This document shows positions 3,355 through 24,131 of a stretch of DNA of 64,000 nt, piece by piece; the first letter of the stretch is position 1, and every line of letters begins with the position of its first letter. The translations under genes and the position numbers were made by a program. The notes under the pieces were generated by a model. The model was not told the DNA's origin and made no database searches. It saw only the letters and a program-made list of their open reading frames with translations. Location: positions 174,313 through 238,312 of the forward strand of contig JAJDDQ010000039.1 in NCBI GenBank assembly GCA_029260215.1. Direction: 5' to 3'. The DNA comes from Phycisphaerae bacterium. Its GTDB lineage: Bacteria; Planctomycetota; Phycisphaerae; UBA1845.

Positions 3355-3963
3355 GTGTTGAATCGAATCTTGATTTGTACGACGGCAGCGCTCGGACTCA
3401 TTTGCGGACCGGCGATGGCCCAGCACGATCACGCTCATGCCGCGATCGGCCAAGCAGCGCCGGATTTCTCGCTGAAGTCGGTCGACGGCAAAAAGGTCAG
3501 TCTCGCGGATTTCAAGGGAAAGATCGTCGTGCTGGAGTGGACCAACCACACCTGCCCGTACGTGAAGCGTTACGTCGCGAAGAAGAAGGTCATGCAGAAG
3601 ACAGCCAGGCACTTTGCGAGAGAGAATGTGGTGTGGCTGGCGATCGATTCAAGCCATTACTGCATGGAGAAGCTGGACGGCATCAAGACGTTCGTCTCCG
3701 AAAACAAGGTAACCTATCCCGTGCTGCTGGACCCGGAGGGCAAGGTCGGCCATCAGTACGGCGCGAAGACAACGCCGCACATGTTTGTCATCGACCAAGC
3801 CGGCATTCTTGCGTACCAGGGTTCGTTCGACGACGACAAGAGCGGCGACGCGAAGAATCCGCGGAACTATGTGCATGAAGTTGTGGACGCGCTCGTAAAC
3901 GGCTCGACCGTCCCGGTGAGCAAAACACGAACGTTCGGCTGCTCGGTCAAATACAAGCAGTAA
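3355..3963 (+). CDS. Secreted thioredoxin-fold redoxin (AhpC/TSA-like)
   Basis: 202 aa. GTG start with a good SD (AAGGGAG, about 10 nt upstream). Residues 1-22 are a signal peptide ending in AMAQ, followed by a His-rich HDHAHA stretch. The thioredoxin-like fold covers about residues 35-180: APDFSL near the start, the active-site stretch HTCPYVKRY, and the cis-proline region TTPHMFVID. The motif is CPYV, with a single Cys in place of CXXC. A second Cys (HYCMEK) and a C-terminal GCSVKY motif may supply the resolving thiol; both features are typical of an envelope redoxin family common in planctomycetes. It probably acts in envelope thiol or peroxide metabolism. Monocistronic, with its own terminator. 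Confidence 0.85.
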   Translation: MLNRILICTTAALGLICGPAMAQHDHAHAAIGQAAPDFSLKSVDGKKVSLADFKGKIVVLEWTNHTCPYVKRYVAKKKVMQKTARHFARENVVWLAIDSSHYCMEKLDGIKTFVSENKVTYPVLLDPEGKVGHQYGAKTTPHMFVIDQAGILAYQGSFDDDKSGDAKNPRNYVHEVVDALVNGSTVPVSKTRTFGCSVKYKQ

Positions 3964-9254: not shown

Positions 9255-12200
9255 TTATGCATTGACCTCGCGCCGTTTCACCTTGAATCGAATTTCCTGA
9301 TACATGCAGAATAGTACGGGGACGACGAGCATCGTAATCACCTCGATCGTCATGCCGCCGAACGACGGGATGGCCATCGGAACCATGATATCCGATCCGC
9401 GCCCGCTCGACGTAAGGACCGGCAGCAATGCCAAAATCGTCGTGGCAGTCGTCATCAAACAAGGCCTAATCCTGCGCTTGCCCGCAATCAGGGTCGCCTC
9501 CCGAATCTCTTTGATGTTTTGGGGAGTGCGATTTGCGAAGGAGTCCTTCAAATAGGTCGCGATGACAACACCATCGTCCGAAGCGATACCAAAGAGTGCA
9601 AGAAAACCCACCCAGATAGCCACACTCAAGTTGATGGGATGAGCCTGAAACAGCTCGCGCAGGCTCGTGCCGAATACATTCCAATCAAGGAACCACGGCT
9701 GCGAGTAAAACCAGATCATGATAAACCCGCCCGACCAGGCCACGATGATGCCGGTAAAGACCAGGCTGGTCGTCACCACGGATTTGAACTGCATGTACAG
9801 AATCATGAAAATAATGAACAATGCCAACGGCAGCACGACCATCAGCTTCTTCTCCGACCGCACCTGGTTTTCATAGGTACCCGCAAAAGCGAAGCTGACG
9901 CCGGCCGGCATCACGAGTTCACCGGAATCGATCTTCTCGTTGAGAAACGCTTGGGCCTGCTCAACCACATCCACCTCGGCGTACCCCGGCTTCATGTCGA
10001 AAAGAACATACCCGATCAGAAAAGTGTCCTCGCTCTTGATGACCTGCGGGCCGCGAACGTAGTCGATTTTCGCCAACTGAATCAACGGAATCTGCGCACC
10101 ACCCGGCGCGGGCACCAAAATTCTGTCCAACGACTCGATGCTGTCACGCAGTTCGCGCAAATAACGCACACGGACCGGGTACCGCTCGCGCCCTTCGACG
10201 GTCGTCGTGATGCGCCGACCGCCAATCGCAACTTCGACGACATCCTGCACTTGGCGCAGCTTGATTCCGTAGCGTGCGATGGCATTGCGGTCGATGTCAA
10301 TCTCAAGGTACGGCTTACCGATAATTCGGTCCGCAACCACAGCTTGAGCTTCGATGGAGGGAACTTGCTTGAGCAGTTCCTCAATCTTCAGGCAGACCTT
10401 GTCAAGCACTTCGAGATTGGGGCCCTTAACCTTCACACCCATCGGTGCCCGCATCCCGCTTTGGAGCATGACAATTCGCGCGGCGATGGGCTGCAACTTC
10501 GGCGCAGAGGTCGTCCCTGGAATCTTGCCCGCCTGCACGATCAAGTCCCAAATATCGTTGGGTTTTCTAACCCCAGGCCAAGCCTCACGCCCGGGGTTGA
10601 GTTCTGGATCAAGCGCCAGCCGCCATTGTCGAAACGGCATCCCGCCCGACTCTTCGATCAGCGCACCGTCGTCGTCACGAGCGAACTTGCCCTGAACGAA
10701 ATACGGTTGCCCGTCCGCCGAAGGTACCGGATTCCCGTCCTTGTCCCGAAACAGATCGACCTCGGATTCATCGTAACGAAACTCCATGCGATGCCCCGCA
10801 TGGTCTGTCATGTATTGCGGATGATAGTTGATGACCGTTTCGATCATGGACAACGGAGCGGGATCGAGCGGGCTTTCGACTCTCCCAAGCTTGCCCACTG
10901 CCAACTCAACCTCCGGCACCTGGTTAAAGGAGATATCCTGCTTCTGCAAGACATCAATCACCTCGCCGATGGAAGCATGCGGCATGGTGACCGGCATGTA
11001 GAGATAGGAGCCTTCGTCGAGCGGCGGCATGAACTCTTTGCCCAGCCCAGGGAATTTCCCAGCGAGATAGGTAGCTGGTTCCGACTCCCGCACTGTCGGA
11101 GGCATCCAATCGAACAAATCGTCAAACCCACGCCAGACCATTCCCCCCGCGATGACAATCATCGCCGGCAGGATGAGAAACGTCCCCTTGTGATCCAGCG
11201 CCCACCTCAGAATGTACGGATACGCCGCCTGGAATAACTGAAACAGCAGCAGCAACCCGCCAATAGTTCCACCCACGAGAATGGCGTTTCGCCACAAACC
11301 CTTCTCCGGGCCGATCGGCAGCCACGACTGCGTCAGCAGGAGCAGGACCGCACCCACCACAACCGCATTCGCCAGCAACGGCCCCAGCTTCCGAAGAATC
11401 GAGGGCAACATCGGCTCGAATGAACCGTACGCCCCAATCACCACGAGCATCACCCCAGGCCACCACCAACCGTAGCCGAAGGCAAACACAACGCCCACGA
11501 TCGCCAACAACGGGTAGAAAAGCCACATCAGACTCCGGCGTCCCTTGCGGCTTTGAACGAATAGAATATGGGCTGCGGGCGGGATAATCGTGAGTGCCAC
11601 AATCACAGACGCAACCAACGCATAGGTCTTCGTAAACGCCAATGGCCGAAACAGCTTTCCCTCCGCCGCCTCCATTGTGAAGACCGGCAGAAAACTCACG
11701 ACCGTCGTCGAAACCGCTGTTAAAATCGCACTTCCGACTTCACTTGTCGCTTCATAGATAACTTCAAGACGGTTCGCTTCAGGATCGGCTTCGTCCAGAT
11801 GCTTGAGGATGTTTTCACAAACGATAATCCCCATATCGACAATCGTACCGATGGCTATGGCAATTCCAGAGAGTGCTACAATATTGGCATCCACACCGGT
11901 CGTACGCATCCCGATGAAGCACATCAAGACCGCCAACGGCAGCAGCCCCGAAATCAGGATCGAGCTGCGCAGGTGGCGCACCATCACAACGACCACAATA
12001 ATCGTCACGAGAATTTGCTGGAGCAGTGCATCGCTAAGCGTGCCCAATGTCTCATAGATCAAGCCTGTGCGATCATAGAACGGCACGACCTTGACCTGGC
12101 TAACCGTCCCGTCAGCCAACGTCTTCTTGGGCAGCCCGGGCGAAATCTCCTCGATCATCGCCTTCACGTTTTTGATCGCCGCCAGCGGATTTTCGCCGTA

Positions 12201-13169
12201 GCGAACAACAACAACCCCACCGACCGCCTCTGCACCGGCCTTATCCAGAACACCGCGCCGAAGCCCAGGCCCCAGTGTCACGTTCGCGACATTGCGAACA
12301 TAGATAGGTACATTGTCATTGACCTTGATGACCGCGTCTTCAACGTCTTCAAGGCTCTCCACGAACCCCAAGCCGCGAATAATGTATTCAACGCGATTGA
12401 CCTCGATCGTTCGGGCACCGACATCCACGTTGGACATCTTGACGGCCATGAAAACTTCTTCCAGCGTCACCCCAAAGGCACGCATCGCGTCCGGATCCAC
12501 ATCAACCTGATACTCCCGAACGTAGCCTCCAATAGAAGCCACTTCGGAAACACCGTGGGCCGAAAGCAGAGAATAGCGCACATACCAGTCCTGAATCGTG
12601 CGAAGTTCGTCAAGCCCCCATCCGCCCGTCGGGTTGCCGTCCTCGTCCTGTCCTTCGAGCGTGTACCAGTAGACCTGCCCCAACGCAGTCGCATCGGGTC
12701 CAAGCGCCGGCTGCACATCTTCCGGAAGTGTGCCAGCCGGCAAACTGCTCATCTTTTCCAGAACACGAGACCGCGACCAGTAAAACTCCACGTCGTCATC
12801 AAAGATGATGTAGATCAATGAGAACCCGAACAGAGAGTAACTGCGGATGGTCTTGACCCCGGGAATCCCCAACAGTGATACCGTCAGCGGATAGCCGATT
12901 TGATCCTCAACATCCTGCGGTGATCGCCCCATCCACTCCGTAAAGACGATCTGCTGGTTCTCGCCAATGTCCGGGATCGCATCGACCGGCATGGGGTCGC
13001 GCGGCAGACCGCCCAAATCCCAGTCGAACGGGGCCGACATCAACCCCCAGCCGACAGTGAACATCATGAAGAGAAAGACAACCAGCTTGTTCTCGATGCA
13101 AAACCGAATGGTCTTGTCGATCAAGCCTGGCTGTGATGGCGGGTGCTCCTGCGGACTAACCCCGGTCAT
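9255..13169 (-). CDS. CusA/CzcA-type heavy-metal RND efflux pump with extra membrane block
   Basis: 1304 aa. Start set at ATG 13169 because AGGAGGT lies 7 nt upstream; it overlaps the end of the adaptor gene by 14 bp. Proton-driven inner-membrane pump of the HME-RND family exporting Cu/Ag or divalent metals. N-terminal TM1 (FCIENKLVVFLFMMF), then PMPVDAIPDIGENQQIVFTEW and LLGIPGVKTIRSYS, are hallmark stretches. TM4 carries AIGTIVDMGIIVCENI with the essential Asp. Two oddities are a block of about 120 aa with several extra hydrophobic segments between TM6 and TM7 (about 11190-11560), and a charged periplasmic insertion (about 10600-10810); the usual family length is 1030-1060 aa. Third gene of the operon after the outer-membrane factor and the adaptor. 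The exact metal cannot be read from sequence. Confidence 0.92.
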   Translation of the reverse strand: MTGVSPQEHPPSQPGLIDKTIRFCIENKLVVFLFMMFTVGWGLMSAPFDWDLGGLPRDPMPVDAIPDIGENQQIVFTEWMGRSPQDVEDQIGYPLTVSLLGIPGVKTIRSYSLFGFSLIYIIFDDDVEFYWSRSRVLEKMSSLPAGTLPEDVQPALGPDATALGQVYWYTLEGQDEDGNPTGGWGLDELRTIQDWYVRYSLLSAHGVSEVASIGGYVREYQVDVDPDAMRAFGVTLEEVFMAVKMSNVDVGARTIEVNRVEYIIRGLGFVESLEDVEDAVIKVNDNVPIYVRNVANVTLGPGLRRGVLDKAGAEAVGGVVVVRYGENPLAAIKNVKAMIEEISPGLPKKTLADGTVSQVKVVPFYDRTGLIYETLGTLSDALLQQILVTIIVVVVMVRHLRSSILISGLLPLAVLMCFIGMRTTGVDANIVALSGIAIAIGTIVDMGIIVCENILKHLDEADPEANRLEVIYEATSEVGSAILTAVSTTVVSFLPVFTMEAAEGKLFRPLAFTKTYALVASVIVALTIIPPAAHILFVQSRKGRRSLMWLFYPLLAIVGVVFAFGYGWWWPGVMLVVIGAYGSFEPMLPSILRKLGPLLANAVVVGAVLLLLTQSWLPIGPEKGLWRNAILVGGTIGGLLLLFQLFQAAYPYILRWALDHKGTFLILPAMIVIAGGMVWRGFDDLFDWMPPTVRESEPATYLAGKFPGLGKEFMPPLDEGSYLYMPVTMPHASIGEVIDVLQKQDISFNQVPEVELAVGKLGRVESPLDPAPLSMIETVINYHPQYMTDHAGHRMEFRYDESEVDLFRDKDGNPVPSADGQPYFVQGKFARDDDGALIEESGGMPFRQWRLALDPELNPGREAWPGVRKPNDIWDLIVQAGKIPGTTSAPKLQPIAARIVMLQSGMRAPMGVKVKGPNLEVLDKVCLKIEELLKQVPSIEAQAVVADRIIGKPYLEIDIDRNAIARYGIKLRQVQDVVEVAIGGRRITTTVEGRERYPVRVRYLRELRDSIESLDRILVPAPGGAQIPLIQLAKIDYVRGPQVIKSEDTFLIGYVLFDMKPGYAEVDVVEQAQAFLNEKIDSGELVMPAGVSFAFAGTYENQVRSEKKLMVVLPLALFIIFMILYMQFKSVVTTSLVFTGIIVAWSGGFIMIWFYSQPWFLDWNVFGTSLRELFQAHPINLSVAIWVGFLALFGIASDDGVVIATYLKDSFANRTPQNIKEIREATLIAGKRRIRPCLMTTATTILALLPVLTSSGRGSDIMVPMAIPSFGGMTIEVITMLVVPVLFCMYQEIRFKVKRREVNA

Positions 13170-15339
13170 CGCTCGCACCTCCTGTCGAACGCTTCCCAAT
13201 GGTTTCCTTCTTCACGCCGCAACGAAACATCGCACTGCCAAAATAGGGATTCTCAGTCTTGTCCTTCACCTGTAACCAATCTCCGCCGCGATCACCGAAT
13301 GCCATGGGACAGTGGTACCGGTAAACCGTCTCTTGAGCATCACCGTAACACTTAGCCGCCACAATCATCGATTCGGAAAGCAGAGCGAAAGCCGCACGAG
13401 CCTTTTGAATGTCGGCCGATCCGGCAATCTTGCCCGCCGACTTCGCCATCCCTTCCGACTCTTTCATCCATGCGATATGCGCCAAGCCAGCCAACATGCT
13501 CATATCCACGTCGGCAATCGCCGCACGCAATTCCTTGGCAGCGTCCTGCGCCTGCCCGAGTTCGTCGTGACTGAGCGCGTTTTGAGCTTTCAAATACGCC
13601 GCAAGCACCGGGTTGAATTCGTTCGCAAACTCCGGCGGGATATTCAATTTCAACCCTTCCGGCATATCCATGTCTTCCCTTGGCGATGGCATTTCGCCGC
13701 CGGCATGCTGATGTTGCTCATGCCCTTCTTCGTCGGACGGCATGGGTTGACCAGCGTCGGGACTCATCATGCTGGGCTTGGCCATGATCTGTATCGCACT
13801 GTCGATCTTGAAGTTGCCACTGACCACAACGCGCTCCCGCTCCTCAAGACCCTCAAACACGATATAGTAGTCGCCCACCCTCGGGCCAAGTCGAATTTCG
13901 CGCCCCTGATATCTCCCCGGTTCACCCGGTACTTCAAGGTAAACCAACGCACGCTTGCCCGTAATCAACGGCGCGGACGCGGGAATCACCAGCGGCATTT
14001 CGACATCGCCGGTCTCTATCGAAACGAATCCGAGCGACTCAGTGCGCACCAAAGGCATACCGCACCGATCGCAGTCACCAGCTTCGTCTTTGACAATCTC
14101 CGGATGCATGGGACACATCCACTTGCCCGCGAGTTCCGCATCCACCACGCGCCCCCCCGCCGCCACTTCCGAATGAGCGACAGCCCGCACAAACATCTCC
14201 GGCTTGAGACGACCATCCGGGTTATCCACGTTGACTCTGACCTTCACCGTCCGCGTTTTCGCGTTAAGTACGGGCGAGATAAACGACACTGTGCCCGTGA
14301 AAATATCCCCGGGATAAGCCTCGGTCTCGAATTCCACCGTCTGACCGTAGCGAAGCCAAGCAAGGTCAGACTCGTACGCATCCAGCTTGACCCAAAGATG
14401 CGACAGATCGGCAATCGTATAGATACGCGTGCCGGTCTTTACATAACTTCCTTCGAGCAAATTCTTGTGTATGACAATGCCGCCCATAGGAGCGTAGATC
14501 GTCATGTAGTCCGACGCAGTGCCTCGCTTCTCGATCTCGGCGATCTGTTCGTCCGTCATGCCCCAAAGACGAAACTTGTCCCGGATGTCGTCCACCCACG
14601 CACCGACGCGCTCATTGACGATAGACTTCTCGCCGCTCTTGATTGATTCGCTCCGCCCCAACGCTTCGAGGAGCTCGGTCTGGGCAGTCGACAACTCAGG
14701 GCTGTACAGGTAGACCATGTGGTCGCCCTTCTTGACGGGGACTCCTGTATAGTCCACATACAAACGATCGAGGCGACCCGGCACCCAAGCTGTAATGTAG
14801 CCCAGCCGAGTTTCGTCGTAGTCAACCTTACCGACCATGCGAATCACAGCCGACACGGTCTTCCGCGTGACGGGGACCGCTTCAACCTCCGCCAGTTTTT
14901 GTGCCGTGGGAGACAGTGTCAGCGTGCGTGGATTGCCGTCATCCCCGCCCGAGTCCTCCACTTCCACCATCTCCATACCACAAATGGGGCAGTCCCCGGG
15001 CATCGACATCGGCGGAACACAAAACATCGAGCAGGCGTACTTCGGTTCCTTTTTCTTGGCGGTCTTGGATCCCGAGCCCCCCTCGACACGGACCAGATCC
15101 ATGCCGCACAAAGGGCATTTCCCCGGCTGCGGCAGGCGGATCTGCGGATGCATCGAGCAGGTCCATATCTCCTCCTGTGCTTCTTCGGCGGAACTGTCCA
15201 TGCCAGCCATCCCGGAAGCGGGAGGAGCCGTGCTGACCATACCCTTGAACGTGTAACCGAGTACGAATACGACAAGCACGATAGCCAGCGTCGGAGTTTT
15301 CGAAGCGATGGCCAGCGCCTGTTGGGCGGCGGATTTCAT
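13156..15339 (-). CDS. CusB-like periplasmic adaptor with three metal-binding HMBD motifs and DUF3347 tail
   Basis: 727 aa. The ATG overlaps the upstream stop (ATGA), with SD AAGGAAC. An N-terminal membrane anchor (residues 15-32) is followed by two zinc-ribbon-like heavy-metal-binding domains: WTCSMHP with CPLCGMDLV, and YACSMFC with CPICGMEMV. The membrane-fusion core follows (barrel-sandwich, LWVKLDAYESDL, RTVKVRVNVDNPDG). A third metal motif, WMCPMHP with CDRCGMPLV, interrupts the distal part. The C-terminal 150 residues match the DUF3347/CusB-associated domain, with late Cys residues in YHCPMAFGDRGGDWLQ. The adaptor bridges the RND pump and the outer-membrane channel and delivers metal. 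Three HMBD units in one adaptor is more than the usual one or two. Confidence 0.92.
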   Translation of the reverse strand: MKSAAQQALAIASKTPTLAIVLVVFVLGYTFKGMVSTAPPASGMAGMDSSAEEAQEEIWTCSMHPQIRLPQPGKCPLCGMDLVRVEGGSGSKTAKKKEPKYACSMFCVPPMSMPGDCPICGMEMVEVEDSGGDDGNPRTLTLSPTAQKLAEVEAVPVTRKTVSAVIRMVGKVDYDETRLGYITAWVPGRLDRLYVDYTGVPVKKGDHMVYLYSPELSTAQTELLEALGRSESIKSGEKSIVNERVGAWVDDIRDKFRLWGMTDEQIAEIEKRGTASDYMTIYAPMGGIVIHKNLLEGSYVKTGTRIYTIADLSHLWVKLDAYESDLAWLRYGQTVEFETEAYPGDIFTGTVSFISPVLNAKTRTVKVRVNVDNPDGRLKPEMFVRAVAHSEVAAGGRVVDAELAGKWMCPMHPEIVKDEAGDCDRCGMPLVRTESLGFVSIETGDVEMPLVIPASAPLITGKRALVYLEVPGEPGRYQGREIRLGPRVGDYYIVFEGLEERERVVVSGNFKIDSAIQIMAKPSMMSPDAGQPMPSDEEGHEQHQHAGGEMPSPREDMDMPEGLKLNIPPEFANEFNPVLAAYLKAQNALSHDELGQAQDAAKELRAAIADVDMSMLAGLAHIAWMKESEGMAKSAGKIAGSADIQKARAAFALLSESMIVAAKCYGDAQETVYRYHCPMAFGDRGGDWLQVKDKTENPYFGSAMFRCGVKKETIGKRSTGGASDDRG

Positions 15340-16919
15340 GGTTGGTTCGTTCCTTCTTCAGGCTGTCTGGGTTCGGCAGACGCTTCCGTGTCGCGAGGCA
15401 TCACGCGACCGACAATCATTTCAAGTTCCGACAACCGCTGAGCGCGGTTGGCCAACGCCCGTTCAAACGAGAGTTCGAATTCCAGCAGAGAGCGCTCCGC
15501 ATCCACAAGGTCAAGAAAACTCGTGGAACCAGCCCGGAAGGCTGTCTCTGTCGAGCGAATCGACTCCCTGGCCTTGGGAATCAACACGTCACGGTACAAC
15601 GATATCTTCCGCTCAGCGTCGCGAAACCCGTACAGCGTTCGCTGCACGGACGACGTCAACGAATTCTCCTGCTGAGTCCGCGATCTCAACGCCGCCAAAT
15701 AGCGCGCACGCGCCTCACGCTCGCCGGCTGCGTATTTGCGGTGCCAAATGGGGATGTTCATCGACAGCGACACCACCCACACATCCTGCCCACTGTCGCC
15801 GGGACGGTTGCCCGGACGAAGACTTTTGCCGATCGCATAGGCATCGACCAGGTCGCCCATGCCGCCGGCGATCCGGGACGCACTGCGCAAAGCACCTGGG
15901 TTCGAAAAACCCTGAGGATTGGAAGTGACAGAGGAACCGACGTCGGTGTAGTCCACACCGAACGTAATGTCCGGATAGTAATCCTTCTTCGACAACGCAA
16001 CGGCGTGACGTGCTCGCTCGATCTCATGATCGAGGGATTTGAGCACCGGACTGTCCTGCGTCAGCCAAAGCAACACCTCTTCATCCGTGAACAGCGGACG
16101 ATCGTCCGGAATGGAAGAAGGAATAGCCAGCTTCGCGCCGGTCGGTCGGTTGAGCACGGCATTGAGCCTGGCGATCACCGGCACAAGAAAATCGCGAAGC
16201 GAGTTGAGTTGATCCTCAAGCTTACCCAGTTCGACCTGGGCGCGAATAACATCCGGGTGACCCGTCGACGCTGTCTTGTATCGGGCACGCGCGACACTCT
16301 CCAGATACTCCACCAGCTCGAAGTTTTCCTGAACAACGTCGATGGCCTGCCCAAGGTAGTAGTACTCGTAGTAGGCGTCCTTCACCTCGAAGAAAAGCCT
16401 GAGCTTCTCGTTCTCATAACGCTGTCGCGAAACCTCAGCTGCCTCAGCAGCCACGCTGCCACGCAACTTCAGTTTGCCGAACCAGGGAAACGCCTGTGAC
16501 AAACCAAACGCCTGCTTCTGAGGCCCGACACGCGTCTCTACCTCGCGAATGAAGTTGCGATAAGTGAAGCGCGGATCCGGCAGGCTCTCCTCCTGCGGCA
16601 CGCGCTCGAGTGCAGCCTTCCAGAAGTTGAACGCCGCCTCCAAACCGGGGTTGTTCAACGCAGCGTAGGCGAGGTACTCTTCAAGACCTGCCGACTCGTC
16701 CAGCTCGGGAAGCGTTGTTTCCTCTTTCAGACGATGCATCGTTGCGACGGGCAATGGCTCCTGTCGCGCGTCCCATCGCATCGCATCACCGACAGACCGG
16801 GGACGCTCTGCCGAAACGCACGCGCCAATCATCCCGCACAACAACGTAATACAACACACCGCGAACTGCGCGTGTAGACTGACGGCTGCTTTTCTCGCCA
16901 CGTAGGGTCTCCCTGTCAT
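15336..16919 (-). CDS. CusC/TolC-type outer-membrane efflux lipoprotein
   Basis: 527 aa. ATG 16919 is preferred (GAGAG 6 nt upstream); a GTG seven codons upstream is possible. The signal peptide ends in a lipobox-like GMIGAC, so it is probably lipidated. Two OEP repeats follow with long coiled helices (about residues 60-270 and 290-500), typical of TolC-family trimeric channels. The motif QAFPWFGKLKLRG and the second half with ARARYLAALRSRTQ are characteristic of CusC/CzcC relatives. First gene of a three-gene operon with a 4-bp overlap to the adaptor. Together with the next two genes it makes a tripartite metal exporter. Confidence 0.9.
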   Translation of the reverse strand: MTGRPYVARKAAVSLHAQFAVCCITLLCGMIGACVSAERPRSVGDAMRWDARQEPLPVATMHRLKEETTLPELDESAGLEEYLAYAALNNPGLEAAFNFWKAALERVPQEESLPDPRFTYRNFIREVETRVGPQKQAFGLSQAFPWFGKLKLRGSVAAEAAEVSRQRYENEKLRLFFEVKDAYYEYYYLGQAIDVVQENFELVEYLESVARARYKTASTGHPDVIRAQVELGKLEDQLNSLRDFLVPVIARLNAVLNRPTGAKLAIPSSIPDDRPLFTDEEVLLWLTQDSPVLKSLDHEIERARHAVALSKKDYYPDITFGVDYTDVGSSVTSNPQGFSNPGALRSASRIAGGMGDLVDAYAIGKSLRPGNRPGDSGQDVWVVSLSMNIPIWHRKYAAGEREARARYLAALRSRTQQENSLTSSVQRTLYGFRDAERKISLYRDVLIPKARESIRSTETAFRAGSTSFLDLVDAERSLLEFELSFERALANRAQRLSELEMIVGRVMPRDTEASAEPRQPEEGTNQP

Positions 16920-17049
16920 CGGTCTCTCAATACGGAACACGCCATTCCCACAAGCACCATTTTTCGCCCAATTCAGCCGGTTGCGACAGCTTCGTCGCGT
17001 CCTGACAAAATGGTCCGCGCATACCCCCTCGCAAAAGGGGAGAATCTAG

Positions 17050-17084
17050 GAAGATCGGGACAATAGACATCGCCCGATCTTCCC
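17050..17084 (-). terminator. Long hairpin, candidate terminator of YHS-repeat gene
   Basis: GGAAGATCGGG (17050-17060) pairs perfectly with CCCGATCTTCC (17074-17084). A second small hairpin, CCTCTC/GAGAGG, lies at 17101-17116. It is 109 bp past the stop of the gene at 17193 and has only a weak U-tract on the minus strand, so it may instead be a repeat element. Confidence 0.4.
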
Positions 17085-17192
17085 GAAACCTCTCCCAGCC
17101 CCTCTCAAGCGAGAGGTGGAAAAATATGGATCACCAGCCTCACAATCGCCGGGCTGGCATCGCATGCGAAGAAGTGCTTGCCCAATACTTAA

Positions 17193-17897
17193 TTAATGAT
17201 CGTGATTTCCGTGTCCGCCCGAACCATGGCCGTGACCTTCGTGACCCTTGCCGCTGTCAGCTTTCTTGGCCTCCGCCCAATTAACGAGAATGCCCTGAGC
17301 AACGAGTTCCTTATTGTACTTCGCCGGGTTCCCACGAAGCTTCTTGTCGCACCCTTTGCAACAATAGTAGATCGTCTCGCCGGTCGACAGCGTCGTCGAA
17401 ACCTTGGGATTGATCGGCTCACCCATCACCGGGCACTTCGTCTGGTACGAGTAGCTGTTGGCCAAGCCAGCCGCGTACTTGCCGGGATCGCGCTTATACT
17501 TGCCGACGCATCCCTTACAGCAAAGGTAGATTTTCTCGCCGTTGCTTTCGACGAAATGCTTCTTGTTGACAGGTTCCGACGTTACCGGACAGGCCACCTG
17601 AACCTTCGCCCGATGCGCGAGCGCTTTACGCTGAGCAGCCAACTGGGTCGCGTATTTCTTGGGATTCCTTTGAAACTTCGGAATGCAACCTTCGCAGCAG
17701 AAATACACAGGGCCGTCGTCGGTCGCGACGCTGAGGGCGAGGTTTGCTGGTTCGTCCATGACGGGACATTTGGGAGTCGCCGCCTTCGCAGCGTGACTAC
17801 CGTGATCGTGATTGTCGTGTTGTGCGACCGCCGGACGTACCCCCATGCCAACAAGAAGCGCCAAAGCGAATGCCATGCCAAAATTCAAGCGATTCAT
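17193..17897 (-). CDS. Secreted triple YHS/TRASH-like metal-binding protein
   Basis: 234 aa. Start placed at ATG 17897 with SD GGAGAT; the 20-codon upstream extension would bury the signal peptide. Residues 1-26 are a signal peptide ending in AVAQ, followed by a His-rich patch (HDNHDHGSH). Three repeats of about 60 aa each carry a CPV(M/T) motif and then a double-Cys motif: CPVMDEP with YFCCEGC, CPVTSEP with YLCCKGC, CPVMGEP with YYCCKGC. Each ends in a KFQRNPKKY-like segment. This is the layout of YHS/TRASH-type metal domains. The last 20 residues are His/Gly-rich. It is probably an envelope copper or zinc buffer working with the neighbouring efflux operon. Transcribed divergently from the ECF sigma gene. 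Confidence 0.85.
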   Translation of the reverse strand: MNRLNFGMAFALALLVGMGVRPAVAQHDNHDHGSHAAKAATPKCPVMDEPANLALSVATDDGPVYFCCEGCIPKFQRNPKKYATQLAAQRKALAHRAKVQVACPVTSEPVNKKHFVESNGEKIYLCCKGCVGKYKRDPGKYAAGLANSYSYQTKCPVMGEPINPKVSTTLSTGETIYYCCKGCDKKLRGNPAKYNKELVAQGILVNWAEAKKADSGKGHEGHGHGSGGHGNHDH

Positions 17898-18001
17898 TAC
17901 TGAGATCTCCGTTTTCCACTTCGCCGTCCGCATCCGCCAGCTCACCATGAGCCACACTCAGAAGAACGGCTGTATTCAACCATTGGATGCACCAGTAGTA
18001 C

Positions 18002-18068
18002 GGTTCCTTCCACAATCGTGCAAGAAATCTCAAAAACCGACCTCAATCACCCCAAACGCACCGTTTGG
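18002..18068. promoter_or_regulatory. Divergent control region with inverted repeat and ECF-like -35
   Basis: CCAAACG (18052-18058) and CGTTTGG (18062-18068) form a perfect inverted repeat with a 3-nt centre, a candidate operator or hairpin ahead of the sigma gene. On the minus strand GGAACC (18002-18007) resembles the -35 element (GGAAC) of many ECF promoters and points toward the YHS-repeat gene. No clear matching -10 was found, so the ECF link is tentative. Confidence 0.3.
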
Positions 18069-18139
18069 CAACCTCCACGGTGTCCCGTACCATTACCGAC
18101 AGGGCCAAAAGGACGCGAACCGGGGTCTTGGACTGGCGT

Positions 18140-18715
18140 ATGAAGAGCGTGACCGAACAAGACATGGTCGAAGGATGCCGTCGTGGGGACCGAGAGGCCC
18201 AGCGGGAATTGTTCGAGCATACCTCCGATCGCGTTTTTCGACTGCTTGTGCGATTGACCGGAAGCATGGACGACGCCTACGACCTGTCGCAAGATACGTA
18301 CTTGAAAGGCTTTGCGCAAATCGACAAGTTCGACGGACACGCATCCGTCGCAACATGGCTGTACAAAATCGCCGTAAACGAAGCCCTCCAATTCCTTCGC
18401 CGGGCCAAATCCACGCGTCTGAAACTGCAAGGTGCCGCCCTCGAACTTGACACAAACCCGGTAGACACAACAGCCGTTCGACTGGACGTGCAAGCCGCCC
18501 TGGCTGTCACAGACCCCTCGGATCGCGCATTCCTTGTGCTCCGTTACCAGGACAGGCTTGATTATCGGACGATTGCGGAAATCGTCGGTTGCCCGGAGGG
18601 GACGGTCGCATCTCGCCTGAGCCGCGCCCGCGACCGACTTCGGAAGATATTACAAAAAAGTTACGATTCACGGGAAGAAAACAACCCCGCCCTGCATCCA
18701 AGGGGCAGCCGTTAG
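18140..18715 (+). CDS. ECF-family RNA polymerase sigma factor
   Basis: 191 aa from ATG 18140 (starts MKSVTEQDMVEG); a TTG-initiated form 25 codons longer is possible, and the SD is weak in both. Region 2 spans about residues 15-85 (RDxxAQRELFE, YDLSQDTYLKGF, WLYKIAVNEALQFLRR). Region 4 spans about residues 125-180 (RAFLVLRYQDRLDYRTIAEIVGCPEGTVASRLSRAR, a helix-turn-helix). There is no region 3, as expected for the extracytoplasmic function group. It directs RNA polymerase to a specific promoter set. The anti-sigma gene follows after 70 bp. The position between metal-efflux genes and a metal-rich anti-sigma suggests control of metal stress, which is inference. Confidence 0.9.
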   Translation: MKSVTEQDMVEGCRRGDREAQRELFEHTSDRVFRLLVRLTGSMDDAYDLSQDTYLKGFAQIDKFDGHASVATWLYKIAVNEALQFLRRAKSTRLKLQGAALELDTNPVDTTAVRLDVQAALAVTDPSDRAFLVLRYQDRLDYRTIAEIVGCPEGTVASRLSRARDRLRKILQKSYDSREENNPALHPRGSR

Positions 18716-18785
18716 GGTTTCAGCCACGACACCGTCGGCGATGACCGCGGTGATACTGAGGGCATTTGTTTGGGGAGTGGTGGCC

Positions 18786-19637
18786 ATGTGTTGCGAACAA
18801 CACAAACACGAAATCGGGCGTTTCCTCGATGACGAGCTTACGCCCGACGCACACGCGAAAATCTCAGAGCATTTGAAAACATGCTCGGCGTGCAGTCGCG
18901 AGCTGGCCGACATTCAGGAGCTTACCTCGAGCATATCCGATTCAAGCCGCGTAACCGTCCCCTCGAACTTGTGGGGATCAATCAAGCATCGTCTCGACGC
19001 AGCCACATGCGAGAAACCCGCGAAACCGCCGGTCATCCGATCCCCGTTGGTGTGGTCGAGGCGTTGGGCGATGGCTGCCTCGCTCGGATTCGCACTCGCG
19101 ATCGGCATGTTTGTCCTGAGTTTGACGAACAGCCCCGCACAGGCCTCCGCCATCGACTTCGGCATCTTGCTCGACGCGTTGCCGCTCGACGCGCAAAAAG
19201 CGTTTCAGAAGTTCCTAAAACTGTACGACGCGCAGCCGGGGTCGCCATCCGATGCGAAGAAGTTCGCACCGTCCCTGGACTTCGAGACCCCGCAGACGTT
19301 GCCTGGCGGCTTCGCCTTGAAATCCGTCTATCTCCTCCAGTTCGGAAATCGCCCTGGTGTGGCAGCCACATACGGACGCGACGGTGAGTTCCTGGCGACG
19401 ATCTTTCACCCGCCCGTGGAGAAGGAAAGCTTTGGCACGCACAAGGACTATCCGTGCGCGATAGGGAAACACCACGGCCACAAAGTTGAAATCGGTTCCT
19501 GGAAGATGGTCCACCTGACCGACCCGACGACCTGCCATTGCGTTCTGAGCCAGCTTGACGAAACATCAGAGCTTCCAGCCGTCATGGCTGCGGTCGCACC
19601 CCGCGCGACGACTTCTCATGCACATGGCCACGAGTAA
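18786..19637 (+). CDS. Membrane anti-sigma factor with zf-HC2 domain and Cys/His-rich outer domain
   Basis: 283 aa. ATG 18786 has GGGGAG upstream; the longer frame from 18741 lacks one. Residues 1-45 form a zinc-binding anti-sigma domain (CCEQHKHEIGRFLDDEL, then HLKTCSACSREL; the HX3CX2C signature). One transmembrane helix lies near residues 96-116. The outer part of about 165 aa has a region similar in layout to RseB/DUF4367-type sensor domains. It contains a metal-ligand-like cluster, YPCAIGKHHGHK and TTCHC, and a HAHGHE tail. It should hold the ECF sigma factor inactive at the membrane until an envelope signal arrives. Metal sensing is an inference from ligands and context. Confidence 0.85.
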   Translation: MCCEQHKHEIGRFLDDELTPDAHAKISEHLKTCSACSRELADIQELTSSISDSSRVTVPSNLWGSIKHRLDAATCEKPAKPPVIRSPLVWSRRWAMAASLGFALAIGMFVLSLTNSPAQASAIDFGILLDALPLDAQKAFQKFLKLYDAQPGSPSDAKKFAPSLDFETPQTLPGGFALKSVYLLQFGNRPGVAATYGRDGEFLATIFHPPVEKESFGTHKDYPCAIGKHHGHKVEIGSWKMVHLTDPTTCHCVLSQLDETSELPAVMAAVAPRATTSHAHGHE

Positions 19638-19779
19638 GGGCTTGCCAGAAGCCCACGCGGAACGGCCCATTCAGCACACGCCGATCGTGGTCCTTGTGCT
19701 GCGTAAACGGCCGAAAGACTGTCATGCGCCAATCGTTATTGACGAAGTGACCCATGCACTATGAAATGCACTCCGCGTT

Positions 19780-20628
19780 TCATTCCTTGCGCTCTTTCGT
19801 GAATCGCATGACAAGCTGATCGCCTGTCGCGGACTCCATGCGACTAAGCCGCCGTTCGAGGACACTCAACGGCCAGGGGATACGCTTGAAAAAACCCGCA
19901 CTGAGCACGCGGAGTACGGCTTGTAAACACATGAATGCACGCATCCCCGGAAAATAAACCGCGTATTTGTCGAGCACCAACTGCGGAGGACAGAACCCCG
20001 TGATCTCCTCCGGTCGATAATGCCTGTGCCAAGCGCGGCGGTCCGACGTCACGTCGATGTCACCCACCAGCCCAACCTCATTGGAACGAACAAAACGCTC
20101 CTCGTAGTATCCGCGATTGCGCAGAACCACGACATGGATCAAACGGTGCAGGCGGGGGAAAATGAACTTGAAATTGCCCAGGTCCAGAAAGGTAAGCAGC
20201 CCCCTGTGCGGCGTCGTGAGAATGAGCGTGCCGCCCGGCTTCAGAATGCGCACGATCTCATCAAGCGTTTGACGTTCATTCGGGACGTGCTCGATGACTT
20301 CCACCAATGCGACGGTGTCGAAGAAACCGTCGGCATAAGGAGTTCGCCCGGATTCGTCCATCGTGTGAAACACGTACTGGGGATGGTCCCGCTGAGCGTC
20401 TCGAATCGCCTGCGGGCTAATGTCCACACCGTGGTATTCCGCATCACCGTCGGAAACTCCGGCGATCAACCCGCCGCGACCGCAGCCAAAGTCCAGGAAC
20501 CGTCCCAACGGAAAACAAAGCCACTGCGCAGCACGCGCTTGCCATCGCCAAACAACCGCGGACGTCGCGTTCGGCTGTCTTGCTACGCAAGCAACCTCGT
20601 TCCTTTGCACTTTGGAAACGTCAACCAT
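19780..20628 (-). CDS. Class I SAM-dependent methyltransferase
   Basis: 282 aa. ATG 20628 (MVDVSKV) is preferred, because the alternative GTG at 20667 falls against the terminator that ends at 20676. The SAM-binding glycine motif is FLDFGCGRGGLI (about residue 45), the acidic motif II is YHGVDISPQAI, and the post-motif stretches are FDTVALVEVIEHV and ILKPGGTLILTTPH, all typical of the Methyltransf_11/UbiE group. The C-terminal 100 residues carry a hydrophobic segment (MRAFMCLQAVLRVLSAGFF) that may dock to membrane. The substrate is unknown; enzymes of this form act on quinones, lipids or sugars. No operon partner apart from the upstream Kazal gene. Confidence 0.85.
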   Translation of the reverse strand: MVDVSKVQRNEVACVARQPNATSAVVWRWQARAAQWLCFPLGRFLDFGCGRGGLIAGVSDGDAEYHGVDISPQAIRDAQRDHPQYVFHTMDESGRTPYADGFFDTVALVEVIEHVPNERQTLDEIVRILKPGGTLILTTPHRGLLTFLDLGNFKFIFPRLHRLIHVVVLRNRGYYEERFVRSNEVGLVGDIDVTSDRRAWHRHYRPEEITGFCPPQLVLDKYAVYFPGMRAFMCLQAVLRVLSAGFFKRIPWPLSVLERRLSRMESATGDQLVMRFTKERKE

Positions 20629-20735: not shown

Positions 20736-23700
20736 CTACTTCGCGATCAGGCAGGGGCCGTCGTGTTTGACACTAACGCCCGCCCGGGCTGCGTAGCAGC
20801 CGTTGGAATATGTGTTGCCGTCACATCCGCAGACCGGGATGTACACATCCAGGCAGGATTGCGGAGCGACCGTGCAGACACCGGGACCGTCACAATTGCC
20901 GACCAGCTTCTTGCAATACTCGGTGAAGCCGATGGGGCCGATGCTGACGCAATCGACATTGGTCACACAGTCATTACCGCCCGTGTCGCACGCGCCTGGG
21001 TGGTCGATGGAAACGTTGGCCTGGTCCGCCATGCATTGGTTTCCGTATGTGACCCCGTCACACCCGCAAACGGGAGCGAGGACCAGCGGGCAGAGGATCG
21101 GCGTCGGCGTGCAAATGCCCTGATTGTCCGCGATCTGGCATTCACCCGGACCAAACTTGCAGAAGTCACTTGCGCTTGGGCAAGGGATGCCCTGAATGCC
21201 ACCACAAACTTCGCCGCCGGTGTCGCACGCGCCCGAATGGTCGATGGAAACGTTGGCCTGATCCGCCATACATTCGTTTCCGTATGTGACCCCGTCGCAT
21301 CCGCAAACGGGAGCGAGGATCAACGGACAGACGATCGGGGTCGGCGTGCAGATGCCCTGATTATCCGCGATCTGGCATTCACCAGGCCCGAACTTGCAGA
21401 AGTCGTTGGGGGTGGTGCATGGAATGCCCGGGAATCCGCCACAGATTTCGCCGCCGATGTCGCACGCGCCTGGGTGGTCGATGGAAACGTTGGCTTGGTC
21501 CGCCAAGCATGCGTTTCCGTACGTAACACCGTCGCAACCGCAAACAGGGGCGAAGATCAACGGACACGCAACCGGCGTCGGCGTGCAGATACCTTGGTTG
21601 TCCGCAATCTGGCACTCACCCGGTCCGAACTTGCAGAAGTCGCCTGCGCTCGGGCAGGGGATGCCCTGAATGCCGCCACAAACTTCGCCGCCGGTGTCGC
21701 ACGCACCTTCGTGGTCGATGGAAACGTTGGCTTGATCCGCCATGCATTCGTTTCCGTATGTGACCCCGTCGCATCCGCAAACGGGAGCGAAGATCAACGG
21801 ACAGACGATGGGCGTCGGCGTGCAGATACCCTGATTGTCCGCGATCTGGCATTCACCAGGCCCGAACTTGCAGAAGTCGCCGGGGGCTGAGCACAGAACA
21901 CCCGGGAAACCGCCACAAACTTCGCCGCCAGTGTCACAAGGCCCTTCATGGGCGACGTTCACACTGGCTGCCGCCGCGAAACATTCGTTGTCGTACGTCT
22001 GACCGTCGCACCCGCAGACCGGGGCGAAAATCTCGATGCAGATTTGCGGATTCGGCGTGCAAGTGCCGACGCCGTCGCAATCGCCATCTTGCTTATTGCA
22101 ATAGAAGGTCAACGAAATGGGGCCTATGGACTGGCAATCGGCGTTGGTGAGACACTCATCCCCGCCGATGTTGCACGCGCCCGCATGATCGATCGACACA
22201 CCTGCTCGCGTCGCGAGGCAGGCGTTTCCATACGTCTGACCGTCGCACCCGCAAACCGGAGCGAAGATCAACGGGCAGAACGGAGAAGGCGACAAACAGA
22301 TTCCCTGATTGTCTGCTACATCGCACGTCCCCGGCGGGAAGATACAATTAGCGCTCGGATCGCTGCATTGAATTCCCTGAATACCGCCACAGACTTCGCC
22401 GCCGGTGTCGCAGGGGCCTTGATGGGCGACGTTCACGCCGGATTGCGCTGCTTGGCACTCGTTGCCATAAGTCCTGCCGTCGCACCCACAGACCGGCGCG
22501 TAAATCGCCGTGCATATTTGCGGGTTCGGCGTGCAAACGCCCACACCGTCGCAGTCGCCGTTTTGCTTGTCGCAGTAGAAGGACAGCGAAATGGGGCCTA
22601 CGGACACGCAATCGGCGTTGGTCAGGCACTCGTCCCCGCCAATGTTACACGCGCCCTCATGATCTATCGAAATGCCTTGCTGGGTCGCGAGGCAGGCGTT
22701 TCCATACGTCTTGCCGTCGCAACCGCAAACCGGAGCAAAGATCAACGGACAGACCGGAGAAGGTGACACACAGATTCCCTGATTGTCAGCTACATCGCAC
22801 GTTCCCGGCGGGAAGATGCAATTATCGTTCGGATCGCTGCACTGGATCCCCTGAATACCACCACACACTTCGCCGCCGGTGTCACAGGTTCCTTCGTGGG
22901 CAACGTTTACGCCCTGCGCAGCCGCGTCGCACTTATTGCTGTAGGTCTTGCCATCGCAGCCGCAAACCGGTGCGTAAATGTCGGTGCAAAATTGTGGGTT
23001 TGGCGTGCAGACGCCCGCGCCGTCACAGTTGCCGTTCTCTTTTTTGCAATAAAAGGTTAGCGAAATGGGGCCGATGGACGTGCAATCGGCGTTGGTGAAA
23101 CATTCATCCCCGCCAATGCCGCACGCGCCTTCATGGTCGATCGAAACGCCTTGCTGGGTCGCAAGACAGGCGTTGCCGTACGTCTTGCCGTCGCAGCCAC
23201 AGACGGGTGCAAAAATCAGCGGGCAGGCCGGGGACGGTGACACGCATGTCCCCTGGTTGTCAGCCACTTCACACGTTCCCGGCGGGAAAATGCAATTGTC
23301 ATTTGGATCGCTGCACTGAATCCCCTGAATGCCGCCGCACACCTCGCTGCCGGTTTCGCACTGGCCGGGGTGATCGATCGAAACGCCCTGTTGACTTGCG
23401 AGGCAGGCGTTGCCGTAGGTCTCGCCGTCGCAGCCGCAAACGGGCGCAAGGATCAGCGGGCAGAATTGCGGAATCGGCGTGCATGCGCCCTGATTGTCGA
23501 AGATGTTGCATGTGCCGGGCGGGAATTTGCAGAATTCATCGTCCGCGCAAGGTTCGCCGACAATTCCGCCGCAAGATTGCGATGCAGGCGACGCGACGAT
23601 TCGCATCACCGTGTCCAGGCAAACCATGTCGTTCATCGAGACGGTGATATCGATATTCGGCATCGAGCCGCCGTTGGGAACCAGACCGCTGTCAAAATAC

Positions 23701-24047
23701 TGAATCGGCCCGTCGTTCATCCGGAGCTTGAGTCGCATGCGGTGGAGGACACCGCCGTCATGTCGTTGGAGTCGATACGTGCCCGCTCCCGTAATTTGGA
23801 TAAAACTGCCAGCCTGCTCCACGCTCAAGGCGACATTCTCAACTCGGAATTTGTGTCTCTCGGCTGGTATCAGGGTGAATGTGCCTTCAAAACCCTGGCC
23901 CAGGGAGATCGGGCACAGGCACGGCGGAAAGCAGCCGTGGGTGTACTCGCTTTCCGGGCTTAGGCGGTATTCCACCTGCCCCCAAGCCGAGGTGGTACCA
24001 AAGGAAAGAAATCCGACCAACAAACACAAGACTGACTTGGTTCGCAT
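20736..24047 (-). CDS. Secreted multi-Kazal-repeat protein (12 units)
   Basis: 1103 aa. ATG 24047 is chosen because GGAGG lies 7 nt upstream. The signal peptide is residues 1-24. An N-terminal beta-rich domain of about 140 aa has few repeats. From there to the end come 12 copies of a Kazal-like module, each with a core (A/I)PVCGCDGxTYxNxC and then HxGxC about 14 residues later. Most are preceded by a second Cys-rich unit with CxFPPGTC or CKFGPGEC and ADNQGxC. Kazal domains are tight-binding serine-protease inhibitors, so the likely role is defence of the cell surface or matrix against proteases. There is no membrane anchor, PEP-CTERM or dockerin. Nucleotide identity between units is high, which points to recent tandem duplication. 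Confidence 0.88.
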   Translation of the reverse strand: MRTKSVLCLLVGFLSFGTTSAWGQVEYRLSPESEYTHGCFPPCLCPISLGQGFEGTFTLIPAERHKFRVENVALSVEQAGSFIQITGAGTYRLQRHDGGVLHRMRLKLRMNDGPIQYFDSGLVPNGGSMPNIDITVSMNDMVCLDTVMRIVASPASQSCGGIVGEPCADDEFCKFPPGTCNIFDNQGACTPIPQFCPLILAPVCGCDGETYGNACLASQQGVSIDHPGQCETGSEVCGGIQGIQCSDPNDNCIFPPGTCEVADNQGTCVSPSPACPLIFAPVCGCDGKTYGNACLATQQGVSIDHEGACGIGGDECFTNADCTSIGPISLTFYCKKENGNCDGAGVCTPNPQFCTDIYAPVCGCDGKTYSNKCDAAAQGVNVAHEGTCDTGGEVCGGIQGIQCSDPNDNCIFPPGTCDVADNQGICVSPSPVCPLIFAPVCGCDGKTYGNACLATQQGISIDHEGACNIGGDECLTNADCVSVGPISLSFYCDKQNGDCDGVGVCTPNPQICTAIYAPVCGCDGRTYGNECQAAQSGVNVAHQGPCDTGGEVCGGIQGIQCSDPSANCIFPPGTCDVADNQGICLSPSPFCPLIFAPVCGCDGQTYGNACLATRAGVSIDHAGACNIGGDECLTNADCQSIGPISLTFYCNKQDGDCDGVGTCTPNPQICIEIFAPVCGCDGQTYDNECFAAAASVNVAHEGPCDTGGEVCGGFPGVLCSAPGDFCKFGPGECQIADNQGICTPTPIVCPLIFAPVCGCDGVTYGNECMADQANVSIDHEGACDTGGEVCGGIQGIPCPSAGDFCKFGPGECQIADNQGICTPTPVACPLIFAPVCGCDGVTYGNACLADQANVSIDHPGACDIGGEICGGFPGIPCTTPNDFCKFGPGECQIADNQGICTPTPIVCPLILAPVCGCDGVTYGNECMADQANVSIDHSGACDTGGEVCGGIQGIPCPSASDFCKFGPGECQIADNQGICTPTPILCPLVLAPVCGCDGVTYGNQCMADQANVSIDHPGACDTGGNDCVTNVDCVSIGPIGFTEYCKKLVGNCDGPGVCTVAPQSCLDVYIPVCGCDGNTYSNGCYAARAGVSVKHDGPCLIAK

Positions 24048-24131
24048 CGCAAAACCTCCAAAATGTATTTCAAACGTGAGAGATGATGGGTTACGCTCGC
24101 CCCCGAATCCATCGTAAATCAATTCACTTTG

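Follow-up and report, generated by a model that had tools for sequence, protein, structure and literature searches.

Gene Organization of the Locus

The stretch of DNA analyzed here (the window; 64,000 nucleotides, from a genome of 5.0 Mb) contains a locus in which an ECF sigma factor gene and an anti-sigma factor gene follow one another on the forward strand (+), while a gene for a secreted triple-YHS protein and then those for CusC, CusB, and CusA homologues run divergently on the reverse strand (−). An initial annotation, made from the letters of the sequence, had described an ECF sigma/anti-sigma pair that diverges from a triple-YHS gene, which is followed by a CusCBA-like operon, and profile matches and sequence reading show that all of these parts are present.

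The sigma factor gene (18140–18715, +) encodes both the sigma2 and sigma4 regions (Sigma70_r2 and Sigma70_r4_2, above the Pfam cut-offs) and also matches the NCBIfam sigma70-ECF model (TIGR02937, 84.3 vs. a cut-off of 42.9), and the protein is thus a member of the ECF class. Its C-terminal tail (...REENNPALHPRGSR) contains no cysteine by reading and lacks the Cys-rich extension of the CorE type. The gene that follows (18786–19637, +) encodes a membrane anti-sigma factor of the ZAS type (zf-HC2, 29.4 vs. a cut-off of 22.2) with a zinc-finger domain at residues 3–36, a single hydrophobic segment at about residues 94–117, by reading, that would span the membrane, and an outer domain at residues 120–283. 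The H-x3-C-x2-C signature of the class I ZAS proteins is present, as H29, C33, and C36 are found in all 64 aligned anti-sigma factors and C3 in 62 of them.

On the opposite strand, the triple-YHS gene (17193–17957, −; PF04945, 48 bits vs. a cut-off of 30.3) encodes three CPV...CCxGC units, by reading. The open reading frame begins with GTG, and a downstream ATG at 17897 (MNRLNFG...), at which a signal-peptide-like sequence starts, is the likelier start of the gene. It is followed by genes encoding a CusC-like outer-membrane efflux protein (15336–16940, −; PF02321, 154.3 bits), a CusB-like adaptor in which Pfam recognizes three HMBD units and a DUF3347 domain (13156–15339, −), and a CusA-type RND pump (9255–13199, −; TIGR00914, 745.8 vs. 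a cut-off of 701.45, which assigns it to the CusA/CzcA model). No terminator-like site was found between the YHS and CusC genes, which is why read-through from YHS into cusCBA is possible. The same gap holds an inverted repeat (GAAGATCGGG...CCCGATCTTC, 17050–17059 and 17073–17082) without a run of T. For the region 15200–19800 as a whole, the single sigma-70 promoter-like and two terminator-like predictions are no more than are found in shuffled sequences and were not used for that reason.

Elsewhere in the window, the gene at 3355–3963 (+) encodes an AhpC/TSA-like protein that is secreted and, by reading, rich in His in its N-terminal part. A Cys-rich protein of a secreted type with 1128 residues (20736–24122, −) has 237-base repeats of the PVCGCDGKTYGN kind, which are Kazal-like, and a long tandem array of 99/198-base repeats at 35904–41643 has a consensus that encodes Asp-rich units (DTDNDGT-like) of a thrombospondin-3-like kind.

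Distribution of the Sigma/Anti-Sigma Pair

Relatives were sought in 200 genomes, comprising 114 of the same order (G000–G113) and 86 sampled outside the order. Matches to the anti-sigma factor (E ≤1e-5) occur in 72 of them, of which 56 are strong and cover the outer-domain sequence and the remainder are at the level of the ZAS domain. All of the strong matches come from the order (56 of its 114 genomes vs. 0 of the 86 others, where the matches are at the ZAS level). A profile of the outer domain run against 392 genomes of the phylum gave two matches, one to the window's own genome and the other a partial match in G314 that stops ahead of the Cys-x-Cys. Since no strong match was found outside the order, the anti-sigma family is treated here as confined to it in these samples.

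The regions around the strong matches gave 63 loci, which together with the window make up the alignments of 64 sequences referred to throughout. A homologue of the sigma factor gene lies beside that of the anti-sigma factor in 60 of the 63 loci, and from this adjacency we infer that the anti-sigma factor binds the neighboring sigma factor. Upstream sequence of 9 kb or more is available for 41 loci, of which 27 have a CusA-type match of more than 100 bits, 23 a YHS match, and 33 a Cus or YHS match. As a scale for the Cus counts, RND-type genes occur in about seven places in the 5 Mb of the window's own genome. The eight well-covered loci that have neither neighbor are L055, L095, L096, and L103–L107. 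The literature searched gave no account of this sigma/anti-sigma pair, which may already have a name in the classification of ECF groups.

The Outer Domain of the Anti-Sigma Factor

The initial annotation pointed to an outer Cys/His cluster in the anti-sigma factor, and each of the motifs that it quoted is indeed located in the outer domain (YPC224, HHGH229–232, TTCHC248–252, and HAHGHE278–283). Their conservation differs greatly. C224, C250, and C252 are invariant (64/64) and H243 is present in 63 of the 64 sequences, while H251 is found in 55, H219, H229, and H232 in 52 each, and H230 in 15. In the tail, H280 and H282 are found in only 24 and 30 sequences, respectively. These counts point to a real constraint on YPC and TCHC, to a partial one on HHGH, and to none on the His-rich tail. 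Lack of conservation had been named as what would speak against the cluster, and it applies to the HAHGHE tail, which is not a conserved ligand, and not to the core of three cysteines and H243. Position 208 is His in 55 sequences and Cys in the other nine (L099–L107), which have an additional cysteine three residues ahead of C224 (ECxxC), a pattern that resembles a change of ligand. Among 28 divergent outer domains (25–80% identity to that of the window), eight columns are invariant (A1, P50, L53, G68, C105, H124, C131, and C133 in domain numbering), and the putative ligands make up four of the eight. It is a well-supported inference that C224, H243, C250, and C252 form a metal site outside the membrane and that this site prefers copper.

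The full-length anti-sigma factor gave a poor structural model (pLDDT 53.8), whereas a model of the outer domain by itself, built from the same 10 sequences, had a pLDDT of 77.3 and a pTM of 0.76. E. coli RseB occupied the seven best rows of a Foldseek search with the latter model (E 4e-3 to 0.14), and the six best rows given by VIA-align were RseB or MucB (Z 7.7–8.4, 92–97 residues aligned), the next being an unrelated chain with a Z of 6.8. The outer domain is likely to resemble the small C-terminal domain of RseB/MucB. We hold this as likely rather than as shown because the match spans only about 95 of the 164 residues and a Z near 8 may, according to the tool's own note, reflect an unspecific or common arrangement. 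At the level of sequence, PF17188 (MucB_RseB_C) has no match in the window's own genome at E values up to 10, and a profile of the 28 outer domains matched no PDB chain at E values up to 5. In the model, H124 lies in the strand 120–126 and C131 and C133 in the strand 131–136, and a regular hairpin with these strand limits would put H124 opposite C133 and place C131 on that side too. C105, which corresponds to C224, sits in a stretch with a pLDDT below 50.

A Bipartite Motif Precedes the Anti-Sigma Gene and Metal Genes

The regions upstream of the sigma factor genes have in common a bipartite word, GGAAGRA-N14-GCATCCAA, that is absent from shuffled sequences and in which the gap between GGAAG and GCATCC is fixed at 16. 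Exact sites of the form GGAAGR-N15-GCATCCAA number 99 in the 200 genomes, where they occur in 55 genomes (vs. five sites for the reversed control). They are found in 45 of the 56 genomes with a strong anti-sigma match and in 10 of the 144 others (89 and 10 sites, respectively; Fisher p 1.5e-24, uncorrected for kinship). Within the order, the genomes with and without a site number 45 and 11 where the anti-sigma factor is present and 6 and 52 where it is not. The loci of the 11 anti-sigma genomes that lack an exact site mostly hold a variant of it. When one mismatch was allowed, the window's own genome contained 10 sites compared to two for the reversed control. Among the seven that were new, the one at L170 lies ahead of a gene whose product is related to the HAMP-SpoIIE phosphatases discussed below, as judged by its sequence only, and the others look like chance occurrences.

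A position weight matrix (PWM) was built from 75 sites that include those of the anti-sigma genes, and scores in front of that gene are partly circular in consequence; 6 of 995 control windows elsewhere in the loci exceed 15, some of which are perhaps real sites. The window contains only two strong sites. The best (GGAAGAAAACAACCCCGCCCTGCATCCAA, 18673–18701, +; PWM 35.8) lies within the sigma gene at its 3′ end, where it is the putative promoter of the anti-sigma gene, and the second best (GGAAGGAACCGTACTACTGGTGCATCCAA, 17983–18011, −; PWM 32.5) is the putative promoter of the YHS gene, the next best score anywhere being 12.4. The promoter activity of both sites is predicted from their sequence. 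ECF promoters had been placed by the initial annotation at 17193 and 15336, which turn out to be the 3′ ends of genes, and the two motif sites take their place.

The loci were scored in the same way. The anti-sigma gene is preceded by a score above 15 in 58 of the 64 loci and above 11 in 63, the exception being L052, and on the divergent (YHS) side a score above 15 is found in 27 of 57. Upstream of the sigma gene, on the strand that encodes it, no score exceeds 15 in any of 57 loci (best 5.1), the sequence being missing from the other seven of the 64. Three anti-sigma genes (L054, L071, and L052) have no detected adjoining sigma gene, and in two of the three the motif is still in front.

In 52 of 61 loci the anti-sigma motif site is inside the reading frame of the sigma gene and in nine it is outside the frame or across the stop codon. 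Where it is inside, all 52 sites use GAA for Glu and CAT for His, against 295 GAA to 379 GAG and 54 CAT to 78 CAC in the remainder of these sigma genes, and Pro is encoded by CCA in 35 of 36 (vs. 19 of 178 in the remainder). The residue that follows the His is Pro, Gln, Leu, or Arg, and the DNA is kept as CNA in 51 of 52. This codon choice indicates that it is the DNA word rather than the peptide that is conserved. The p-values for these codons are biased by the fact that the sites were placed by the motif itself, whereas the nine cases outside the frame are independent of codons. The counts from the 61 loci supersede an earlier test of 25 sites that used a crude ORF finder.

Downstream Genes and the Probable Metal

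We inspected the genes downstream of 83 of the 99 exact sites, 63 of them in the window and its related loci and 20 chosen outside those loci. Pfam scans covered 13 of the 20 unlinked sites and eight linked ones besides those of the window, and the other genes were named by their likeness to the scanned proteins. The 63 linked sites precede 30 anti-sigma genes, 13 YHS genes, five that are CusB-like, three for HAMP-SpoIIE phosphatases, two that are AhpC/TSA-like, and one each for an HMBD protein, a multicopper oxidase (Cu-oxidase_3, 103.8 bits), a receiver-type protein, and a Met-rich protein, while six have no assigned gene. The 20 outside sites precede five YHS genes, two for Met-rich proteins of the Metal_resist type (one above and one below the cut-off), two for HAMP-SpoIIE phosphatases, two of the receiver type, and one each for an outer-membrane efflux protein (OEP), an AhpC/TSA-like protein (below the cut-off), a carbohydrate-binding-module protein, and, at 359 bases, an FtsX-type protein. 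Four have no convincing gene and one is at a contig end. No folding-factor or protease gene is found among the nameable genes downstream of the motif.

The third exact site in the window's own genome is followed (L141, C84, 15–4732, −) by a gene for a Met-rich secreted Metal_resist protein, then one for an FAD/2Fe-2S reductase with a Met-rich N-terminal part, and then one for a DUF547 protein. HAMP-SpoIIE phosphatases that sit in the membrane and are alike in their outer portion (ASPGHHI) follow the motif at L142, L151, L076, L083, and L088, as well as the one-mismatch site at L170, and because they do so repeatedly the regulon may include a signaling branch.

An alignment of the CusA homologue to the E. 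coli protein (3k07, E 6.7e-180) shows that the YMP, PLxM, and RIxML segments have kept their methionines, which are presumably equivalent to E. coli M573, M623, and M672 of the Cu(I)/Ag(I) path. These methionines and the kinds of downstream gene narrow the metal towards the Cu(I)/Ag(I) type and make Zn or Ni less likely as the main signal.

A Proposed Circuit and Its Alternatives

We regard the ECF/anti-sigma system as real and as order-wide, with a regulon of a metal type and with feedback laid out in an unusual way. We further consider it fairly probable that the system is an envelope sensor circuit of the Cu(I)/Ag(I) type, in which the ZAS anti-sigma factor with its outer metal site controls the ECF regulon with negative-only feedback. 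The chances seem about even for the fuller proposal of an order-wide Phycisphaerae copper regulon with a one-piece receptor, in which a ZAS anti-sigma factor is joined to a fold like that of RseB and a Cys3His copper site has arisen in this fold, again with negative-only feedback. The complete envelope metal sense-and-export circuit proposed in the initial annotation is well supported by the comparison of loci (the three cysteines and the His, the Cus or YHS neighbors, and the common motif), but is to be drawn without HAHGHE as a ligand and with other promoter positions.

In such a circuit, the cytoplasmic ZAS domain would hold the sigma factor, and outside the membrane the RseB-like small domain with its C224/H243/C250/C252 site would bind excess metal. 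The altered outer domain might then lead to the anti-sigma factor being cut or opened, perhaps by regulated proteolysis, with release of the sigma factor. M50-type proteases are encoded in the window's own genome, and as they are likewise found in all 14 control genomes they are only permissive for this step. The freed sigma factor would read promoters of the motif type, in the window that of the YHS gene and possibly of cusCBA via read-through, and elsewhere those of the Met-rich, phosphatase, multicopper-oxidase, and CusB-like genes. The neighboring metal pump CusCBA is probably among the genes switched on. The promoter that lies within the last part of the sigma gene would feed the anti-sigma gene only, and because the sigma gene has no such promoter of its own the feedback would be negative only.

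A pair of cysteines such as C250-x-C252 could also form or exchange a disulfide, and the presence of three invariant cysteines in an oxidizing compartment is what a redox sensor would call for. The sigma factor would in that case be freed by a thiol/disulfide change at C224/C250/C252 and not by a metal, and the metal genes would belong to a wider thiol-stress regulon. We consider this unlikely, as the near invariance of H243 and the exchange of His for Cys at position 208 are better suited to ligands and the nameable genes downstream of the motif are mostly metal genes. The top fold matches raise a different possibility, since RseB and MucB belong to envelope-stress sensors. The outer domain may be an RseB-like sensor of damage with a structural zinc, and the metal genes may respond since excess metal harms the envelope, with which the HAMP-SpoIIE phosphatase and receiver-type genes behind the motif would agree. 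Such a regulon does not fit with the lack of folding-factor and protease genes noted above or with a ligand set that is better conserved than the remaining outer domain, and we judge this explanation to be quite improbable.

It is highly improbable, in our estimation, that the motif is read by a different regulator co-inherited with the pair and not by this sigma factor. The absence of the motif in front of the sigma gene is unlike the usual autoregulation of ECF factors, and each of the 10 genomes that have a site without a strong anti-sigma match carries a single exact one, which in L160 precedes a YHS gene. Yet presence of the motif tracks presence of the pair, with the reservation on kinship given above, and two boxes with a fixed gap, the first of which starts with GGAA, are what is expected of an ECF promoter.

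Comparison with Known Systems

ECF sigma factors are numerous in the Planctomycetota, but the signal or the target motif is known for few of them. The present system offers a candidate ligand site, a motif that is sharp enough for a pattern search of the regulon, and a wiring rule open to testing, in which feedback acts on the anti-sigma factor only. Should the outer domain indeed be RseB-like, a fold that senses stress would have come to serve as a receptor for a metal, and the system would provide a direct means to study how a metal ion on the outside releases a sigma factor on the inside.

A parallel in architecture is found in RseA/RseB-sigma E of E. coli and MucA/MucB of Pseudomonas, where a membrane anti-sigma factor likewise holds an ECF sigma factor and where the small domain of RseB/MucB is likely to be similar in fold to the outer domain. 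RseB is a separate protein that is not known to have this set of cysteines, while here one protein carries both parts and, to judge from the motif, the targets are metal genes. The CnrYXH system of Cupriavidus similarly ties metal sensing by an ECF/anti-sigma pair to an operon for RND efflux. Its sensor of Ni/Co, CnrX, is a periplasmic protein of its own, and CnrY is a class II anti-sigma factor, in contrast to the ZAS protein with its own outer domain found here. CorE of Myxococcus is a copper-responsive ECF factor that activates multicopper-oxidase and copper-export genes; it differs in that the sensor is the Cys-rich tail of the sigma factor itself and there is no anti-sigma factor.

SigAb/AabA/AabB of Acinetobacter is similar in combining a copper-responsive ECF factor with anti-sigma proteins (PMC12153292). 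SigAb autoregulates its own operon and controls metal genes indirectly (PMC12153292), whereas in the present system the genes preceded by the motif are those for the anti-sigma factor and metal proteins, and the sigma gene is not among them. Sigma F/NrsF of Caulobacter shares an ECF factor for metal stress and an anti-sigma factor that depends on two conserved cysteines, and sigma F itself is not strongly autoregulated, which is a further likeness to our system (PMC3511200). It is unlike ours in responding to chromium and cadmium (PMC3511200).
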